Source: Cyanobium sp. Morenito 9A2 (lineage in GTDB: Bacteria; Cyanobacteriota; Cyanobacteriia; PCC-6307; Cyanobiaceae). From it: 64,000 bases of DNA. Positions 53,479-64,000 of the stretch are shown here, piece by piece; the first letter of the stretch is position 1, and each line of letters begins with the position of its first letter. The stretch is from contig NZ_JAGQBJ010000014.1 of the NCBI RefSeq assembly GCF_024345575.1, forward strand, positions 1-64,000. Direction: 5' to 3'. The notes beneath the pieces were generated by a model. The model was given only the letters and a program-made list of their open reading frames with translations. It had not been told where the DNA came from and made no database searches. Made by a program: the position numbers and the translations under genes.

Positions 53479-54450
53479 ATGACCTCAAACCCTCCGATCC
53501 GGCTGATGGACCGCTACCGGGAAGAGCTGGTTGTGCGTCATTACGCCAGGCGCACCATACAAAGCTATTCCCACTGGGTGAAACGGTTTCTTCACTTTCA
53601 TGGTCTCCGCCATCCGCGGGAGATGGGAGCAGTCGAGATCAATGCCTTCCTCAGCCATCTGGCCACCGAAGGTCAGGTCAGCGCCTCAACACAGAACCAA
53701 GCACTTTCAGCCCTGCTGTTTCTCTACCGCCATGTGATGGGTGTTGAGGACGTGGACCTGAAGGGCCTGGTAAGGGCCCGCCGACGGCAGCGATTGCCGG
53801 TGGTGCTGACGCTGGAGGAGGTGCGCCAGGTGCTCGATCATTTGGAGGGGAGCAATCAATTGATTGCCAAACTGCTCTATGGCAGCGGTCTGCGCCTGAT
53901 GGAGGCACTGAGACTGCGCATCAAAGACTTGGACTTCCAACAGCGGCAGCTATCCGTGCGGGATGGAAAGGGTGGCAAGGACCGGGTAACAATGATTCCC
54001 GAACGATTGATCAGACCCCTTCAGGAACACCTCAAGCGGGTGAAGGAGATCCACCGAGCGGATCTAGAGCGCGGCTGGGGGGCCGTTGAGATGCCCCAGG
54101 CGCTGGAGATGAAGTACACCAACGCCTCACGGGAATGGAGCTGGCAGTGGGTCTTCCCACAAGCACAACGCTGGAAGGACCGGACAAGCGGTCGACAGGG
54201 ACGCCACCACATCGACCCCTCAATCGTGCAACGGGCGATGCACACAGCCGTGAGGACAGCAGAACTGAGCAAACCGGCCACTTGTCACACGCTGCGGCAT
54301 TCATTTGCCACCCATCTGCTCGAACGGGGTCAGGACATTCGCACAATCCAAGAACTGTTGGGTCATAGCGATGTCAAGACGACAATGATTTACACGCATG
54401 TCCTCAATCGAGGGCCGACGGGGGTACTGAGCCCGGCGGACCTGCTCTGA
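53479..54450 (+). CDS. intI: Integron integrase (tyrosine recombinase)
   Basis: A 323-aa site-specific recombinase that captures and excises cassettes by attI x attC and attC x attC exchange. The N-terminal SAM-like domain ([20 protein letters not shown]) is followed by the catalytic domain with Arg139 ([14 protein letters not shown]), Lys164 region (RDGKGGKDR), His270/Arg273 ([14 protein letters not shown]), His296 ([16 protein letters not shown]) and nucleophile Tyr305. The integron-specific extra helix is present: [20 protein letters not shown] (208-227), the diagnostic IntI patch absent from XerC/D. It is transcribed toward the cassettes, opposite to the class 1 layout. Confidence 0.97.
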
Positions 54451-56700: not shown

Positions 56701-56780
56701 GGGCCGCCCAAGGCAGCTTGGCAGAGCCGAGAGTCAATCGCTAAACTGTGTACAAACGGCCATTTGGATACGCACAGAAA

Positions 56781-58097
56781 ATGAACATCTATCAAGAATG
56801 GGGATTTGTCGATTCACCATTCCAAGTAACCCCGCTTCCACCCTCTGAGTTAGGAGAGAATCTGCTCATTGGGCGAGAGAAAGAACTCGCAAGCCTCTCA
56901 AGAAAACTGTTCAATCCGCCCAAGATTGCGACTGTTGAAGGTCTGAATGGTGTCGGCAAGACAAGCCTCGTCAATGTAGCTGCATTCAAGGCGTATCACA
57001 ATTGCTTGTCAGGATGGAATGGCCCTTTGCTTATCCCATGCAACAAGGTTTTCCAGCTGGACACTATCAAGGGGGCTGATGAGTTTATTGACGAGGTCTT
57101 GATGGCAGTGGCCCAGACTCTGATTGATCGGGCCAAGGCAATTCAAGGCTTAGGAGTCTCGATCAAGACTGGGCCTATTGACAAGTGGTTGAACTCACCT
57201 CAGATCAGTACATTGCAAGGAGGTTTTTCGATAGCAGGGAATGGAGCAAATATCGGTGGGAATTCAGAATCGAATACTTCATCTGGTTTTGAGCGCAGTG
57301 GTTTTCGAAAGGAAATTGAGTTGTGGCTCCAGCAGTTGTTTCCCACTCAGAATGATGGCGGAGTCATCTGTGTAATCGATAATCTGGAGCTTTTGCAAAC
57401 CTCAGATAAGGTCCGTCAACTGCTTGAGCAACTTAGGGACAGGCTTTTAGTCTTGCCAGGTCTTCGCTGGGTTTTGTGTGGAGCTCTCGGGATCGTCTTA
57501 GGAACTGTTTCCTCTCCAAGGCTTGAGGGATTCCTTCATGCACCAATTGAAGTTGGCGGTGTTGATGATGCCTTGTCTGCGCAGATATACCATTCACGCC
57601 TTACTGCTTATGCCGGCTCGGAGGGCAAAGATCTTTATATGCCATTGTGCTTGGAAGATTTTGAGACTTTATACATTATATTGCATCGCAACCTTCGTAG
57701 CACGCTGGGAAGGGCAGATAATTTTTGTCAATGGGTGGCTGAACATAGAATTCCACAAACTCTCGACGAAAAGCGCAGAGTATTTAGTGAGTGGTTAAAC
57801 GCAGAAGCGCTAGCTGCACTCACTGCCGCAGAGTCGGTACTAAAACCACGTGCTTGGGAAGTTTTTTCTGTTGCGATTGATCTTGGTGGCGTCTTCTCTC
57901 CTAGTGACTTTCAAGAGTTTAATTTCAATAGCTCAATGGCCCTGCGTCCGCACGTTAAAGACCTAGAGGATTCTGGGCTACTTGTTAGCACACAAGACGA
58001 AGGCGATAAGCGACGAAAGACAATTCAAGTAACCCCTAAAGGGTGGCTTGTGAAATACGCGAAAGATCATTCGGACACATTTAATAATGCCACCTAA
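56781..58097 (+). CDS. Cassette 3: P-loop ATPase with probable C-terminal winged helix
   Basis: A protein of 438 aa from ATG 56781; a GTG at 56748 would add 11 residues. MNIYQEWGFVDSPFQVTPLP leads to an IGREKEL box, the entry of ORC/STAND-like AAA ATPases. Walker A is EGLNGVGKTS (about 53-62) and Walker B is VICVIDNLELL (about 195-205). PGLRWVLCGALG is a sensor-1-like strand. The last 100 residues, with LKPRAWEVFSVAIDLGGVFS and LRPHVKDLEDSGLLV, look like a winged helix. No effector domain is fused. It could be a regulator or one half of a defence system. The stop TAA sits in the attC3 core. Confidence 0.75.
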   Translation: MNIYQEWGFVDSPFQVTPLPPSELGENLLIGREKELASLSRKLFNPPKIATVEGLNGVGKTSLVNVAAFKAYHNCLSGWNGPLLIPCNKVFQLDTIKGADEFIDEVLMAVAQTLIDRAKAIQGLGVSIKTGPIDKWLNSPQISTLQGGFSIAGNGANIGGNSESNTSSGFERSGFRKEIELWLQQLFPTQNDGGVICVIDNLELLQTSDKVRQLLEQLRDRLLVLPGLRWVLCGALGIVLGTVSSPRLEGFLHAPIEVGGVDDALSAQIYHSRLTAYAGSEGKDLYMPLCLEDFETLYIILHRNLRSTLGRADNFCQWVAEHRIPQTLDEKRRVFSEWLNAEALAALTAAESVLKPRAWEVFSVAIDLGGVFSPSDFQEFNFNSSMALRPHVKDLEDSGLLVSTQDEGDKRRKTIQVTPKGWLVKYAKDHSDTFNNAT

Positions 58098-58179
58098 CAT
58101 CAAGATACAGCGGATGGAGGCCAAGTGATTCTGATATTTCCGTTTACATCCTTCCCACCGCTGATCTTGAGCGTTAGAT
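58092..58179 (+). other. attC site 3 (end of cassette 3)
   Basis: An 88-bp site. R'' ACCTAAC at 58092, R' GTTAGAT at 58173. Inner arms CAAGATACAGCGG and CCGCTGATCTTG pair, with GATGGAGG opposite a short TCCTTCCC region. R'' exactly complements GTTAGGT at 56694. The arms form a third sequence type within the array. Confidence 0.92.
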
Positions 58180-58186
58180 TGACCCC

Positions 58187-58837
58187 ATGGATACCAACTT
58201 GCTAATTGAGCAGGCGCAAAGAATTGTCGCCGTCATTGAAGAAAGGCTTGTTTCATCCATTCGTGAGGATCCAGCCGCATCTCAGGGCTATGTGACAGAG
58301 GCTGCTGAGTTTCTTAGAGTCTATGCCGGGGAGAAGAGCGAGTTCTTCACTAGCTTGAAGCAGTGCTTGGATGGAAAGCATAATGGTGAGTATCTTGGCA
58401 AGCTGGCAAATGAGAGCTTGACTGGATTCGTCAGATATCTTAAGGCAGGTCTTCATGAAGGAACTACGCCTACACGCCAGGCACAGCTTGATACAGTATC
58501 TGACATTTTGGATCAAGCAAGACTACTACTTGAACAGCAGAAGGTTCACCCAGCAGCGCCAGCAGTCCTGATTGGCGCGGCGCTTGAGGAGTTTCTTAGG
58601 ACTTGGCTCGAAAATGCCAACATCAGTCTTGGGAACAAGAAACCGTCTCTTGACTCATATTCGCAACTTCTTAAGGAGAATGATCTGATTACAAAACAAG
58701 ACACTAAAGATATCTCTTCATGGGGAGGGCTTCGTAATCACGCCGCTCATGGAGAGTGGGATCAAGTGGAAGACAGAAAGCGGATAAATATGATGCTTGA
58801 AGCTGTGGGCCTCTTTATGCGTAGGTATGGTGGCTGA
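58187..58837 (+). CDS. Cassette 4: protein with HEPN-like C-terminal motif
   Basis: A 216-aa protein with ATG at 58187, only 8 bp after the attC3 core. The N-terminal helices (LIEQAQRIVAVIEERLVSSI) resemble a coiled four-helix region. The C-terminal part AAPAVLIGAALEEFLRTWLE, then WGGLRNHAAHGEWDQVEDRK, contains RNHAAH, an R-x4-H motif with a following Gly as in HEPN ribonucleases and DUF4145-like or Abi proteins. This suggests an RNase-type or structural HEPN fold, a class common in toxin and abortive-infection systems. No cognate antitoxin is in the cassette. Confidence 0.68.
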   Translation: MDTNLLIEQAQRIVAVIEERLVSSIREDPAASQGYVTEAAEFLRVYAGEKSEFFTSLKQCLDGKHNGEYLGKLANESLTGFVRYLKAGLHEGTTPTRQAQLDTVSDILDQARLLLEQQKVHPAAPAVLIGAALEEFLRTWLENANISLGNKKPSLDSYSQLLKENDLITKQDTKDISSWGGLRNHAAHGEWDQVEDRKRINMMLEAVGLFMRRYGG

Positions 58838-58842
58838 AAGCA

Positions 58843-58932
58843 ATCTAACATCGCCATTCACCTGAGCCGCCCCCAAATGATTTCTGAATGCACCTTTAGA
58901 ACACTGCGGCCAGGTGATGGCGAGCGTTAGGT
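58843..58932 (+). other. attC site 4 (end of cassette 4)
   Basis: A 90-bp site. R'' ATCTAAC at 58843, R' GTTAGGT at 58926. Arms ATCGCCATTCACCTG and CAGGTGATGGCGAGC are almost the same as in attC1 and attC5. R'' is the exact complement of GTTAGAT at 58173, which opens cassette 4. Confidence 0.93.
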
Positions 58933-59578
58933 GCTTGAGGAAGGCTTAATGATTGATGTCAAAAGAGCAGAAGAACTGTTTAGAATCCTCGCTGAAGTGA
59001 CTGATCAGCCCCTCTATGAGGAGTCTGCGCGAATTGAGCTGAGTGCCACGCTCGCAAACACAGCTCTTGAAATTGCACGATCGGTGAGAATCCTGTGTTC
59101 AGCCGACCAGCTACTCGGAGCAACGGTTTGCCTTCGTAGCCAATTCGAGTCTCTTGTCAGAAGTGTGTGGACTTTGCACTGCGCAAGTGAGAATGAAATC
59201 AAACGTCTATCCATAAAGAGTCTTACGGCTGAGACGGCGCAAGGCGCAAAAAATATTCCCCTTGCTGCAAAAATGCTTAAAGATCTGGAAGAGATTCCCA
59301 GTTTGAGGAATCTGATGGTCGCTCTAAATGAATTCAAGGGCTCGGCATGGCGTCCACTTAATTCATTCGTACATGCTGGTCTTCACGCAGTGGTTCACAC
59401 GAAGTTCGGGTGGCCACCAGAGCTCGTCGACCAAACATTTCGAATGAGCAACGGGCTTTGCGTGCTTGCCTTTACGCAGATCGGCTTACTCAACGGAACA
59501 CCAGGGGTTCAAGGAGAGATCATTGCTTTAGCAGCTAGCTTCTCCAGTGTTCTTCCAAAGTATCGTGATAGCACCTAA
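58931..59578 (+). CDS. Cassette 5: protein of unknown function, possibly DUF6988-like
   Basis: A protein of 215 aa from GTG 58931, which is part of the core GTTAGGTG, or 209 aa from ATG 58949. All-helical look. IELSATLANTALEIARSVRI, LRSQFESLVRSVWTLHCASE and RPLNSFVHAGLHAVV resemble a helical family I recall as DUF6988, found in accessory regions, but I am not certain. The SFVHAGLHAV histidines could be functional. The stop TAA lies in the attC5 R'' core, so the gene fills the cassette from edge to edge. Confidence 0.65.
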   Translation: MLEEGLMIDVKRAEELFRILAEVTDQPLYEESARIELSATLANTALEIARSVRILCSADQLLGATVCLRSQFESLVRSVWTLHCASENEIKRLSIKSLTAETAQGAKNIPLAAKMLKDLEEIPSLRNLMVALNEFKGSAWRPLNSFVHAGLHAVVHTKFGWPPELVDQTFRMSNGLCVLAFTQIGLLNGTPGVQGEIIALAASFSSVLPKYRDST

Positions 59579-59661
59579 CATCGCCATTCACCTGAGCCGC
59601 CGCCACATGAGCATTGGATGTCCCAATCTCTCCTTGCGGCCAGGTGATGGCAGCGTTCGGT
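59573..59661 (+). other. attC site 5 (end of cassette 5)
   Basis: An 89-bp site. R'' ACCTAAC at 59573, R' GTTCGGT at 59655. Arms as in attC1 and attC4 (ATCGCCATTCACCTGAGCC and GGCCAGGTGATGG), with one base lost before AGCGTT. R'' exactly complements GTTAGGT at 58926. The next cassette therefore opens with TTCGGT, a different core. Confidence 0.92.
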
Positions 59662-59791
59662 GGGCCAGATGACGCTCTATCTGCACTGATCTGAGATCTT
59701 CTTACTGTTATCTGAAAACACACTCGCTCAAGGGAGATAACCATCTCAAACAACCACTGCAATGATTACTTCAATCTGCTGACACTCCATC

Positions 59792-62287
59792 GTGGTCTCA
59801 TCTCCAGGTCGCTCCAGAGACTGCATCTTCATCAGCTACCGCCGTGATGACGCCCGTGGTGCCAGCGGGCGGGTGTGGGACTGGTTGCGGATCGGCTTCG
59901 GGAGAGAGCGGGTTTTCCGCGATGTCGCCAGCATTGGGGCCGGCAAGTGGCGAGAGAAGATCGATCTGGCCCTGGCGGCCAGCACCGCCTGCGTGGCGGT
60001 GATCGGTAGCCGCTGGGCCGATGACACCAATCTTCCGAGGCTCAACGATCCAACCGACATGGTCCGTTATGAGCTGGAGACGGCACTTGCGGGCGGGGAG
60101 CGCCAGGAGATGACAGTGGTGCCGGTTCTGGTGGAGGAAGCACAGCTCAGGGCGATCCACACAGCTCAGCTTCCTGCTGTGCTGCAGCCTCTCCTGGGTG
60201 AATGGAATGTGCTTGAGCTCAGTGAAAGTGGCTGGGATGACGACACCCGGCGCTTGATCGAGGCGATCGCGGAGGCAACGGGGCTTGCAGCACAGCCAGA
60301 TCTGGAAGAGTGGCTGTCGCGGATGGCAGGAGCTAAGCGAGGCCTGGCGGCAACGGCCAAGGGCCAAGATCTCTCGACCGTAGGCAAAGCGGGGGAACAG
60401 CAAGCCCTAGATGCAATGTTGAGCAGGGTTGCAGAAGCTCCTTCCAACGAGCGGGCTGGCCTGAAAGCAGCCTTTGAGGCCTTGGCAGAAGGCAACAGCC
60501 TTCTTGCGGAAGAGGAGTTTGAGCGTGAGGTGGAGAGCAGCGAGCGGCTCATCGACGCGGCTTCTCAACTACTGGCAGCAGAACAAAAAAAGATGGGAGA
60601 ATCGGCTCGCAACGTCGCCAGCCTGGCGGTGGCGCGGGGTGATCTTAGAAAGGCGGTGGTATTTTTCAACAAAGCACTTGATGCCTTGCCCGATGATTTT
60701 TCGGCAGCTCTCCAACTAGGTGATGCCTGGATCAGGCTTGGTTCACTGGATAAGGCCAGTGAAATATTTGGCAATGTGATCACCCAGGCTAGTGAGCAGC
60801 GCGAGCAGACGTTCGAAGCGTTGGGATACAACGGCCTGGGTTATGTGTTGAAGGCGCGGGGTGACAGCCAAAGGGCACTAGAGGCTTATCAGCAGGGCCT
60901 GTCGATCACAAAGGCCCTTATTGAACGGGATCCGGCCAACACCCAGTGGCGACTCTATCACTCGATGAGCCAAAGCAATATAGCTGATGTCCTTATAGCG
61001 CAGGGCAACACCCCAGGAGGGCTCAGCTCATACCAAGCCGCCCTCGCGATCACCGAAGACCTCGCGAGGCGTGATTCGACCAACACGCAACTGCAGCGTG
61101 AACTCGCCATATGCCAAGAGCGGATCGGTGATGTGCTGCAGCAACAGGGCGAAGACACTAGAGCGATGGTGTCACATCAGGCGAGCCTGGCGATCAGGGA
61201 GACCCTTGCGCAGCAGAATCCAACCAACACAGAGTGGCAGCACGATCTCTTTGTAAGCAAGCTCAAGATCGGTGATGTATTCCTGAGAGCAGGCGACAAC
61301 ATCGGAGCACGCATGTTATACCAAGCCGCCCTGAAGATTGCCGAGGATCTTGCTAGGTATGATTCCGCCAACACGCAATGGCAGAGCGGACTTTCTGCGA
61401 TTCACGAGCGGATCGGAAGTGTGCTGTTGACGCAGGGCGACAACGTCGGTTCGCTCAGCGCATACCAAGCCGCATTGAAGATTACCGAAGCCTTGGCTGA
61501 TCAGGATTCGACCAATACGCAATGGCTGAACAGTCTGTCGGTAATCCACAGAAAGATCGGTAATGCGCAGTTGGCTCAGAGCGAAGATCCTAAGGCGCTG
61601 AAGGCATACCAGCAGGGCCTCTCGATTACAAGGACCCTTGTGGAAAGTGATCCCGCCAACGCAGAGTGGCAGCGCGATCTCTTCATCAGCCAAAGCTTGG
61701 TTGCCGATGTCCAATTCAAGCTGGGCAATATCCCTGCAGCACTAAAGACTTATCAGCAAGTAATAGAAACAAACGAAGCCCTAGCAGCACGAGATCAGTA
61801 CAACATGCAGCTGCAGAGCGATCTAGCCATAAGCCAAGAGCGGCTCGGTGATGTGCTGATGAAGCTAGGTGATTCAAGCAAAGCGCTGACAGCTTACCGG
61901 GCAGGCTTAGTGATCACAAAGGCCCTTGCGCTGCAGAATCCAACTAACACACAGTGGCGGCACCAATTTTTCGTTAGCAACAGGAACATCGGTTACGCGC
62001 TGTTGGAACAGGGTGACAAGCAAGGGGCACTACGCTCCTATCAAGCAGCTCTGGAGATTGCCGAAGATCTTACGCAGCAGGATTCGACGAGCACCCAATG
62101 GCAAGTGGACATTGCTGTCTGCTGCAGAAAAGTGAGCTCTCTGGATTCCTTGCTATCGATTAGCGATCGAAGGGAGTATCTACTCCGTGGTCGTCAGGTT
62201 CTCCTTGATCTGAAGAAAGCTGACAGGTTACTTGCATCACAGGACGGGATTGGTTGGTTCGACCAGGCACTTATAGATTTAGAATGA
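59792..62287 (+). CDS. Cassette 6: TIR-domain protein with long TPR array
   Basis: An 831-aa protein from GTG 59792, about 130 bp inside the cassette. Residues 9-165 are a TIR_2 domain: CIFISYRRDDARGASGRVWD, then VFRDVASIGAGKWREKID, VAVIGSRWADD and VRYELETAL. In enzymatic TIR domains a Glu in this last helix is the NADase residue (here Glu94 or Glu96, inferred). After a helical linker, about ten tetratricopeptide-like repeats of about 47 residues run from 290 to 790, each with a variant of ALKAYQQGLSI, then ALxxxDPxNTQWQ and ISxxxIGDVL. TIR-TPR proteins are candidates for NAD-depleting immunity or signalling. Confidence 0.85.
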   Translation: MVSSPGRSRDCIFISYRRDDARGASGRVWDWLRIGFGRERVFRDVASIGAGKWREKIDLALAASTACVAVIGSRWADDTNLPRLNDPTDMVRYELETALAGGERQEMTVVPVLVEEAQLRAIHTAQLPAVLQPLLGEWNVLELSESGWDDDTRRLIEAIAEATGLAAQPDLEEWLSRMAGAKRGLAATAKGQDLSTVGKAGEQQALDAMLSRVAEAPSNERAGLKAAFEALAEGNSLLAEEEFEREVESSERLIDAASQLLAAEQKKMGESARNVASLAVARGDLRKAVVFFNKALDALPDDFSAALQLGDAWIRLGSLDKASEIFGNVITQASEQREQTFEALGYNGLGYVLKARGDSQRALEAYQQGLSITKALIERDPANTQWRLYHSMSQSNIADVLIAQGNTPGGLSSYQAALAITEDLARRDSTNTQLQRELAICQERIGDVLQQQGEDTRAMVSHQASLAIRETLAQQNPTNTEWQHDLFVSKLKIGDVFLRAGDNIGARMLYQAALKIAEDLARYDSANTQWQSGLSAIHERIGSVLLTQGDNVGSLSAYQAALKITEALADQDSTNTQWLNSLSVIHRKIGNAQLAQSEDPKALKAYQQGLSITRTLVESDPANAEWQRDLFISQSLVADVQFKLGNIPAALKTYQQVIETNEALAARDQYNMQLQSDLAISQERLGDVLMKLGDSSKALTAYRAGLVITKALALQNPTNTQWRHQFFVSNRNIGYALLEQGDKQGALRSYQAALEIAEDLTQQDSTSTQWQVDIAVCCRKVSSLDSLLSISDRREYLLRGRQVLLDLKKADRLLASQDGIGWFDQALIDLE

Positions 62288-62324: not shown

Positions 62325-62409
62325 GCCGAACATCCAGATGCAGAAGACGAGAGCCTACGCTAGTTTCTTGCCCAACATCTCGGCCCGCTTCTGATCTGGA
62401 GCGTTCGAC
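62325..62409 (+). other. attC site 6 (end of cassette 6)
   Basis: An 85-bp site. R'' GCCGAAC at 62325, R' GTTCGAC at 62403. Arms ATCCAGATGCAGAAG and CTTCTGATCTGGAGC pair, as in attC2. R'' complements GTTCGGT at 59655 except for one base, so cassette 6 also closes on its own opening core. This explains its unusual C/G core bases. Confidence 0.9.
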
Positions 62410-62515
62410 GGCACTGCGATTGATCCCGTGCCCCCTCCTGAAAGCGGTAGGGTAGTGCGGTGTTGCCAACGGGGCTTGAATACAATGCTGATTACCCATG
62501 GTAGTGAGTCAATCC

Positions 62516-63646
62516 ATGACAAATGAAACTTCCATCATTCCTGATGACCAGCAAGAAGATGAGGGTGATATTCATCAGCATATCTCTTTCAAAGATGCAG
62601 TTGTTCTTAGCGCGGACTGGACGATTGAGACTATCAACTCTCAGATACTGAAGGGGAACATTGATCTTCAGCCTGGATTCCAGAGACGTGTCGCATGGGA
62701 CGATGTACGCAAGAGCCGCCTTATTGAGTCAATTATTGTCGGCCTGCCGGTACCTAACATCGTTCTCGCCGATAACCGGGTCCATCGTGGCCGGTTTATC
62801 GTGATTGATGGAAAGCAGAGACTCGTCTCCATTAACCAGTTCATCACAAACAGCTTTACTCTCAAGGGACTCGACATCAGACCCGAGTTAAATGGCATCT
62901 CCTTCGATAGCCTTCCTTCTGAAGATCGGGAGTACCTAGAGAATGCGACACTACGATCAACACTTATTCGAAATTGGACTGACGATAACTTTTTATATGC
63001 AGCATTCTTTCGGCTAAACAGTGGCAGCTTGCCTTTGTCGCCTCAAGAACTCAGAAAGGCATTAGTGGGAAGCAACTTACTCGACGCCATTGAAGAATAC
63101 TTGCTTGCGAGTACTGCATTCAAAGTGATCTTTGGAGACAAGCTCGATAAGCGTATGCGAGACTCTGAACTGGTTTTGCGCTTCATAGCATTTGACAGGA
63201 GCCTATCTGATTATCGTGGCAACTTCAAAGAGTTATTGGACAATACAACTCAGTATTTTGAAGATGATTGGACGACTCGTCAGGGCGAGGCATTGGAAGC
63301 CCTAGCTCGACTCGACATGGCGTTGAACACCGCGCACTCCATCTTCGGGACTGACACTTTCAAGAAATGGCTTGGTGATAGGTATGAGCGTGTCATCAAT
63401 CGAGCCATCTTTGATTGTATTGTTCGGTTCTTTGCTACTCGAGCAGTGGTGGATGCTTCGACTGGCAAGGAACTTGCAATTGTCGAAGCATTTAAGATGA
63501 CATGTCAAGATAGGGATTTTCGAGATGTTATCGAGAAGACGACCAAGTCCGTTCACGCAACATTGCAGCGGATAGATCGCTGGGGTGAAGCCCTGTGTGA
63601 ATCGATCGGTCTCAGTTATGACAAGGAAGCGCATAAGGTTGTCTAG
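62516..63646 (+). CDS. Cassette 7, gene 1: DUF262 (GmrSD/ParB-like nuclease fold) protein
   Basis: A protein of 376 aa from ATG 62516; an in-frame ATG at 62498 would add six residues. The DUF262 core is clear: SRLIESIIVGLPVPNIVLAD, then RFIVIDGKQRLVSINQFIT, where DGKQRL is the family's DGQQR motif used in GmrSD and related systems for NTP or DNA cleavage. The C-terminal half is helical (KRMRDSELVLRFIAFDRSLS) without the DUF1524 HNH domain of full-length GmrSD. About 90 bp precede the start inside the cassette. The next gene begins 2 bp after the stop. Confidence 0.88.
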   Translation: MTNETSIIPDDQQEDEGDIHQHISFKDAVVLSADWTIETINSQILKGNIDLQPGFQRRVAWDDVRKSRLIESIIVGLPVPNIVLADNRVHRGRFIVIDGKQRLVSINQFITNSFTLKGLDIRPELNGISFDSLPSEDREYLENATLRSTLIRNWTDDNFLYAAFFRLNSGSLPLSPQELRKALVGSNLLDAIEEYLLASTAFKVIFGDKLDKRMRDSELVLRFIAFDRSLSDYRGNFKELLDNTTQYFEDDWTTRQGEALEALARLDMALNTAHSIFGTDTFKKWLGDRYERVINRAIFDCIVRFFATRAVVDASTGKELAIVEAFKMTCQDRDFRDVIEKTTKSVHATLQRIDRWGEALCESIGLSYDKEAHKVV

Positions 63647-63648
63647 CA

Positions 63649-64000
63649 ATGCCGAAGAGCTGTGCGCACTTCAAGCACCTAAGCGAGCGAGTTGAGGCTC
63701 TTTCACAGAAGTTTGTCGACGATCAAGTTGCAAGCGAGCTCGCTGACCCGATTACGTTTCAGCCCGATCTAGATCGGCTAGCGGCATTTCGCCTTCTCGT
63801 TCATGCAGAGATTGAGCAGTTTCTCGAAGCGAAAGCGACCGAGAATATTTCAGAGATTGAAGCTATGGCGCGCGGCTCTACAGTTTGGATGCGTTCAAAG
63901 CCGGCACTTCTACTGCTTGCAGTAGCATTAAGCAGGCCACTCCCATCTGGCGAGAGTTTAGATGTCAGCAAATTCTGTCTGTTTGTACGCGAGCTAGCCT
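63649..64000 (+). CDS. Cassette 7, gene 2: probable HEPN-type partner, truncated by the window end
   Basis: ATG at 63649 follows the DUF262 stop after 2 bp. The 117 visible residues start MPKSCAHFKHLSERVEALSQ and contain FRLLVHAEIEQFLEAKATEN and MRSKPALLLLAVALSRPLP. The helix FRLLVHAEIEQFLE resembles the first core helix of MAE_28990-like or RiboL-PSP HEPN proteins, which are often paired with DUF262 proteins. The diagnostic R-x4-6-H part would lie beyond the window, so the family is provisional. The tight spacing shows a two-gene cassette. Confidence 0.65.
   Translation, partial: MPKSCAHFKHLSERVEALSQKFVDDQVASELADPITFQPDLDRLAAFRLLVHAEIEQFLEAKATENISEIEAMARGSTVWMRSKPALLLLAVALSRPLPSGESLDVSKFCLFVRELA

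Follow-up and report, generated by a model that had tools for sequence, protein, structure and literature searches.

A DUF262 gene and a HEPN-like gene paired in one integron cassette of Cyanobium sp. Morenito 9A2

The genome of Cyanobium sp. Morenito 9A2 (3.10 Mb, 26 contigs) carries, in an integron array, a cassette of two genes, of which the first (gene 1) encodes a DUF262 protein and the second (gene 2) a HEPN-like protein. The two genes are strictly paired and co-inherited and constitute a unit. Because they share one cassette and are found next to each other in bacteria of many kinds, they are probably a phage-defence or toxin-antitoxin module. By analogy with related systems, the reading preferred here, with a probability of roughly 0.6, is a two-component anti-phage module carried as a single integron cassette, in which the DUF262 protein would regulate and the HEPN protein would cut RNA. 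From the families to which the proteins belong, we infer that the HEPN protein would be an active RNase, serving in defence or as a toxin, and that both products would be required.

Anatomy of the cassette and its integron array

The window (the whole stretch of DNA that was analysed, 64,000 nucleotides) comprises positions 1-64000 of contig C6, which continues to position 71,997, so that gene 2, although it runs past the end of the window, can be read whole. The features are:

53506..54441, + strand, intI, the integron integrase gene belonging to this array (TIGR02249, 465.9 bits against a cut-off of 265; Pfam Phage_integrase, 9.8e-36)
62325..62409, + strand, opening attC, which ends the preceding cassette (R''/L''/L'/R' layout; 68.7 bits by an attC model for which it was one of the 11 training sites)
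62403-62409, + strand, R' core GTTCGAC of the opening attC, the 5' boundary of the DUF262-HEPN cassette
62498..63646, + strand, gene 1, DUF262 protein of predicted GmrS-type ParB/Srx fold, 382 aa from the first ATG (open frame; alternative ATG at 62516)
C6:63649-64260 (63649..64000 inside the window), + strand, gene 2, HEPN-like protein, 203 aa (open reading frame, complete in the contig)
C6:64278-64364, past the window end, closing attC, starting 17 bp after gene 2 (R''/L''/L'/R' layout; attC model)

Genes 1 and 2 are the sole genes between the two attC sites, and only 2 bp separate the stop of gene 1 (63646) from the start of gene 2 (63649), as the earlier note had stated. The R'' core that it had predicted for the closing site, GTCGAAC, is present there and pairs with the opening R' core GTTCGAC without a mismatch (complementary at 7/7 bases). 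The bottom strand of the opening attC has a single-strand DNA fold z of -3.25. The attC covariance model, built from the 11 layout-scan sites of this array only, finds 13 distinct sites in the window and its extension, 11 of them its own training set. In an unfiltered scan with this model (locus L002, 300-2500), the opening and closing sites scored 68.6 and 68.5 bits, no attC was found between gene 1 and gene 2, and nothing else exceeded 9.9 bits, which bears out the reading of both genes as one cassette.

The R'/R'' chain over the 11 attC sites matches on 7/7 bases in eight of ten consecutive pairs, one of the two mismatches passing over an attC site at 59573. The R' core of that site (59573-59661), GTTCGGT, is one base off the complement (GTTCGGC) of the next R'', which breaks the chain. 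The second break runs from 68698 to 70397 (L002 6698 to 8397; GTTCGGC versus GTTCGAA), and the model finds no further attC inside it. The integrase gene lies on the + strand and thus points the same way as the attC sites of the array, an arrangement that is unusual compared with mobile integrons.

Two-gene cassettes, which had been taken for exceptions, are not exceptional here, since other cassettes of the array also carry gene pairs (HicB/HicA-type and RelE/HigA-type frames), two of which were checked for domains (HicA, 3.5e-12; HI1420-type antidote, 4.4e-30). Two RelE/HigA-type pairs of the same array (L002 3052-3662 and 7733-8343) are very similar by eye in translation. Conflict-type genes are abundant in the array (window 56748-62287; L002 2438-4744): a HicA toxin and an antidote pair of HigA type occur there together with a Mrr restriction enzyme, a TIR-TPR protein and a protein that matches AAA_16 weakly. 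A single-gene cassette at 58187-58837 encodes a product of 216 aa with RNHAAH (R-x4-H) near its end, possibly another HEPN-like protein, for which there is no Pfam match at E <= 0.01.

It is highly improbable that the cassette now does nothing in this cyanobacterium and is carried along without selection or in decay. A simple scan (L002 280-2500) found no sigma-70 site on the strand of the genes and one on the opposite strand (2.6 expected by shuffles), and six attC sites, the opening one included, lie between intI and the cassette, as might be the case for a passenger; however, neither frame is interrupted, each retains the residues that are invariant in its family, and both attC sites and their 7-base core match are intact as well.

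The two proteins and their folds

Gene 1 matches the Pfam family GmrSD_N (DUF262, E = 1.3e-23) and contains the motif DGKQRL, with no DUF1524/HNH family among its Pfam matches at E <= 10; the earlier description of a DUF262 protein with this motif and no HNH domain thus holds. DUF1524 is likewise absent from the matches of gene 2 at E <= 10. Among PADLOC models, gene 1 matches NsnA (8.3e-72) and PD-T4-2_A (2.1e-32). All 42 gene 1 proteins compared have DGxQR, 39 of them in the form DGKQRL, and D104-G-K-Q-R108 of gene 1 is invariant across the 42-row alignment. The best Foldseek rows of the predicted structure (pLDDT 88.2) include BrxU, Noc/ParB, SspE and sulfiredoxin (top E = 0.0039, probability 0.99), with no row at E <= 0.001. 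Structural alignment gave Z of 8.7 and 8.5 for BrxU and 6.1-6.3 for SspE; since the better BrxU alignment covers 265 residues at an rmsd of 14.7 A, the two proteins share domain order and not exact arrangement. The gene 1 profile found one row among PDB sequences, at chance level (E = 0.64). The folds point to a predicted BrxU/ParB-type DUF262 protein without HNH.

Gene 2 carries R164-x4-H169 (RGDVAH) beyond position 64000, where the earlier note had expected a motif of the R-x4-6-H type, and the motif does not vary in any of the 41 relatives that were aligned. R-x4-6-H is frequent by chance, a second copy being found in many of the relatives, and the weight therefore lies on the invariance of R-x4-H at one alignment position. 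The residues that never vary among the 41 sequences are H52, A53, E56, E60, N127, G129, G143, G161, R164, A168 and H169, and the protein of the window keeps all of them. The earlier note had held that a second gene without a HEPN motif, or an attC between the genes, would speak against it; as the motif lies beyond position 64000 and no attC separates the genes, its observation is confirmed, and its interpretation as a toxin-antitoxin or defence module is supported.

The match of gene 2 to the Pfam family RiboL-PSP-HEPN (PF18735) is below the cut-off (14.5 bits against 28.4; E = 0.035), and all 17 family members in the phylum, including that of the window, match this model at E <= 1 (best 1.1e-11). 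PADLOC models match gene 2 weakly (PD-T4-2_B, 0.0057; no match to NsnB), and the 17 family members of the phylum gave weak matches only (HEase in four, PD-T4-2_B in two at E <= 1, Cas13c in one; best 0.0017). The sole NCBIfam match, to a phytoene synthase model, was weak and was rejected.

The structure of gene 2 was modelled on the orthologue of locus L022 in place of the window's own protein. This model is all-helical (pLDDT 88.5), with R-x4-H at the end of the predicted helix 151-169, which is the position given in the available text of the HEPN survey (Anantharaman 2013, PMC3710099). Foldseek found nothing in the PDB at E <= 0.001, nor did the gene 2 profile match any PDB sequence. When 973 chains were realigned to the model, the nine best rows had Z of 8.9-10.8, a range in which, by the aligner's own caution (Z under about 13), helical bundles of any kind may look alike; a designed protein came next, with Z of 7.7. 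Six of the nine are HEPN/HepT toxin-antitoxin entries by title, with MNT-HEPN toxins among them, and the other three (5yep, 1jog and 1ufb) we take to be HEPN-type. Titles among the structural rows also name HEPN mutants at R102 and H107, which have the same R-x4-H spacing. The top rows of HEPN type, although below Foldseek significance, and the invariant motif point to a HEPN-like gene 2, of which the product is likely to be a HEPN RNA-cutting enzyme.

In an alternative arrangement, which is improbable, the DUF262 protein would itself be the nuclease, through nicking of the ParB/Srx kind or through a cryptic site, and the HEPN protein would be a subunit without catalysis that serves structure or nucleotide binding, so that the pair would be a DNA-targeting enzyme resembling type IV restriction. 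The available texts describe the closest folds, BrxU and SspE, as acting on DNA, list some HEPN families as inactive (PMC3710099) and cite DNA nicking by ParB/Srx (a 2026 BREX paper). The invariance of R-x4-H in 41 of 41 relatives is, however, what is expected of a catalytic site, and gene 1 has no match to DUF1524, which the sources at hand give as the cutting domain of BrxU and GmrSD. A regulatory DUF262 protein with a HEPN RNase remains the preferred assignment.

Pairing, inheritance and origin

The pair, for which the earlier note had suggested a search elsewhere, recurs in other genomes. A search with gene 2 only recovered 41 loci in eight phyla (Pseudomonadota, Cyanobacteriota, Verrucomicrobiota, Acidobacteriota, Actinomycetota, Chloroflexota, Bacteroidota and Planctomycetota), and in all 41 a DUF262 gene lies directly upstream on the same strand, with gaps of -128 to +147 bp when the longest starts are taken. 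Protein distances of gene 1 and gene 2 are strongly correlated (Mantel r = 0.942, n = 42, reached by 0 of 2000 permutations).

Among 386 genomes of the phylum there are 18 gene 2 matches (the genome's own included), every one after a DUF262 gene, which is broken in one case (L017). A 19th match (L021) is a methyltransferase by sequence and was removed from the counts. Starting from the other gene, a DUF262 match at E <= 1e-20 occurs in 89 of the 386 genomes, and 19 matches exceed 500 bits. In 17 of these 19, that of the window included, the neighbouring HEPN frame keeps R-x4-H (in one of the 17, L018, the frame has an altered start and a gap of 147 bp); of the remaining two, one has a shortened HEPN frame without R-x4-H (L082) and the other lies at a contig end (L079). 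The phylum set (17) and the set of 41 loci overlap (G235 and L027, for example), and their counts are not additive.

Two damaged copies bear on whether the pair is a strict toxin-antitoxin system, in which a constitutive HEPN RNase toxin would be countered by a DUF262 antitoxin, with prevention of the loss of the cassette array as its main job. In genome G262 (L082 2737-3105), the HEPN relative is reduced to 122 aa, its centre including R-x4-H being lost, and the adjoining DUF262 gene is still open, which speaks for this reading. The gene order (putative antitoxin first, gap of 2 bp), the two toxin-antitoxin-type cassettes nearby (HicA and the HI1420-type antidote above) and the MNT-HEPN toxins among the best structural rows of gene 2 also agree with this reading. 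In genome G237 (L017, L085), however, DUF262 is split by stops beside a HEPN frame of 192 aa that has an altered 3' end and keeps R-x4-H (RSQIAH), a state hardly compatible with a potent free toxin, although this is one case; the break in its DUF262 gene kept L017 out of two alignments (A1 and A2). Furthermore, the nucleotide-pocket motif of all 42 DUF262 proteins and their resemblance to enzymes that sense phage DNA exceed the needs of a simple antitoxin, and the attC model of this array finds no integron site in 39 of the 41 relatives. A strict toxin-antitoxin system is thus rather unlikely, and an anti-phage module with a regulatory DUF262 protein is the reading retained.

The attC model, scanned over the 41 loci, found a site near the pair in Halomonas alkalisoli (L028; 33.9 bits, 29 bp after gene 2), of which R'' matches an upstream GTTAACA, and a weak site without a matching downstream core in L035 (E = 0.03). 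The other 39 have none at E <= 1 by this model, which derives from one array only and which distant attC types could escape. The R'/R'' chain finder gave nothing on the loci of the relatives, L028 included. L028 (5669-5746 and 8896-8954), where the same pair is followed by an attC, is a second probable integron-borne copy.

By eye, and among the neighbours listed, the genes next to the 41 relatives are mostly ordinary-looking, and hence no defence-island argument is made. In all five Microcystis loci (L027, L033, L036, L042 and L054), a gene of C5 DNA methyltransferase type, identified by motif, follows the pair on the same strand. With gene 2 as the query, tblastn found no match at E <= 1e-3 among plasmids (72,556 records) and none at E <= 1e-2 among phages (50,697 records). 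A profile search, however, found gene 2 relatives adjoining plasmid DUF262 genes in L096 and L097; of 86 plasmid records with a DUF262 match, five were examined. On a Bradyrhizobium plasmid, a related DUF262-HEPN pair of another branch adjoins an N-6 DNA methylase.

The DUF262 proteins fall into clades according to their partners. Of ten weaker DUF262 loci (L086-L095, among the matches listed), five are followed by another RiboL-PSP HEPN that scores above the Pfam cut-off. In four the next gene encodes an ATPase of NsnB type (E below 1e-119), and one has no frame of at least 90 aa on its strand within 600 bp. In a 50-row DUF262 tree, unrooted and with the near-copies L027, L031, L033, L036, L038, L042, L045 and L047 dropped, the proteins that belong to this HEPN pair form one clade (100/100), in which the two plasmid rows with a gene 2 relative (L096 and L097) are included. 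The four NsnB-linked proteins form a separate clade (98/97), in which L094, on a long branch, is possibly a false join, and the remaining HEPN-linked proteins, including a PD-T4-2-like one, lie outside the clade of the cassette. The places of L101, L099, L100 and L094 in the tree are unsure because of their long branches.

The closest homologues of both genes are proteobacterial, with 73% identity for gene 1 and 63% for gene 2 in the alignment (65% by tblastn) in the case of L022. In a tree other than the 50-row one, the copy of the window falls inside a proteobacterial group (99/98 and 100/100), and 15 further copies from cyanobacteria group apart in a clade of their own. The array's own attC model finds no attC in the nearest relatives, L022 and L023. 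On a plain reading of the sequences, the cassette was acquired by lateral transfer and is of apparent proteobacterial origin. Tentatively, the clade may represent a DUF262 defence lineage separate from Menshen and PD-T4-2, with its own HEPN branch, spread over eight phyla and traded between Proteobacteria and Cyanobacteria as an integron cassette; this HEPN branch is without a good model in PADLOC 2023. If such a lineage exists, DUF262 would be a sensor that can change partners, its effector being in some systems an HNH DNase, in others an ATPase of AAA/OLD type or a HEPN RNase.

Proposed function and comparison with known systems

In the proposed mechanism, modelled on the families of the two proteins, gene 1 would be a DUF262 regulator with a nucleotide (NTP) bound in a ParB/Srx-type pocket, and would probably change state when it recognises nucleic acid that is foreign or modified, as BrxU and SspE do. 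It would do so without the HNH nuclease of BrxU and SspE, gene 2 being the dedicated HEPN effector with R-x4-H as its putative active site, either held inactive by gene 1 or in complex with it. On infection, gene 2 would cut RNA, and growth or phage production would stop. The cassette offers a compact, sequence-complete, two-gene test case of how the DUF262 sensor family may control different effectors, and would add a cyanobacterial array to the integrons that are seen as carrying phage defence.

The model that gene 1 matches best is NsnA, which like NsnB we take to be a Menshen gene, but the cassette has neither an NsnB ATPase nor a third gene, and its partner is a HEPN protein. With GmrSD, BrxU and SspE, gene 1 shares the DUF262 domain and fold; unlike them, it has no DUF1524/HNH match, and a separate HEPN gene takes that place. 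According to the available text of Machnicka 2015, the surroundings of GmrSD genes are enriched in a few domains, and the integrase domain typical of integrons is one of the most frequent there.

The accessible part of the HEPN survey (Anantharaman 2013, PMC3710099) lists RiboL-PSP-HEPN as "operon with ParB" and proposes that HEPN domains in integron cassettes are dormancy-inducing RNases. The present pair resembles these operons in its Pfam HEPN family and in its partner gene of ParB/Srx fold, but that part of the survey gives RiboL-PSP-HEPN no integron setting, and its "integron cassette HEPN" is a different family (PDB 3jrt). Defence cassettes of integrons (Darracq 2025, Kieffer 2025 and Getz 2025, as described in the text available of PMC12409362 and PMC12444791) are from Vibrio and mobile integrons; the present cassette is likewise a probable defence module borne as a gene cassette, and differs in belonging to a cyanobacterial array. 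DUF262 is not named in the accessible text of DefensePredictor (PMC13092281), and among the titles and abstract openings listed by a search of the open-access literature, with subscription papers and preprints largely outside it, none describes the pair as an integron cassette.

By analogy, PD-T4-2 is a validated precedent for the DUF262-HEPN architecture. It consists of DUF262 and HEPN, and by the available text of Vassallo 2022 (PMC9519451) it protects E. coli against T4 in both the native strain and K-12, its deletion from ECOR65 having raised T4 plaquing; a review places it under both DUF262 and HEPN in the part at hand (PMC10952713). The likeness lies in the gene order (DUF262, then HEPN), in the gap (also 2 bp in the PD-T4-2_B-like locus L101) and in the first protein, the gene 1 profile matching the PD-T4-2 DUF262 at 99.7%. 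For the second protein, in contrast, the gene 2 profile matches a PD-T4-2_B-like protein with a probability of only 16.9%, with R-x4-H aligned, and the DUF262 protein of L101 lies outside the clade of the cassette, on a very long branch. A search for PD-T4-2_B in 321 genomes of the class to which the Halomonas genome belongs found one, too few for a profile. The pairing of DUF262 with HEPN is thus already known, and what is new is that a cyanobacterium carries a copy in an integron, that this copy nests within those of proteobacteria, and that its HEPN branch is matched only weakly by PADLOC; the finding is of value for its complete two-gene cassette, for the strictness of the pairing and for the structure of the clades.
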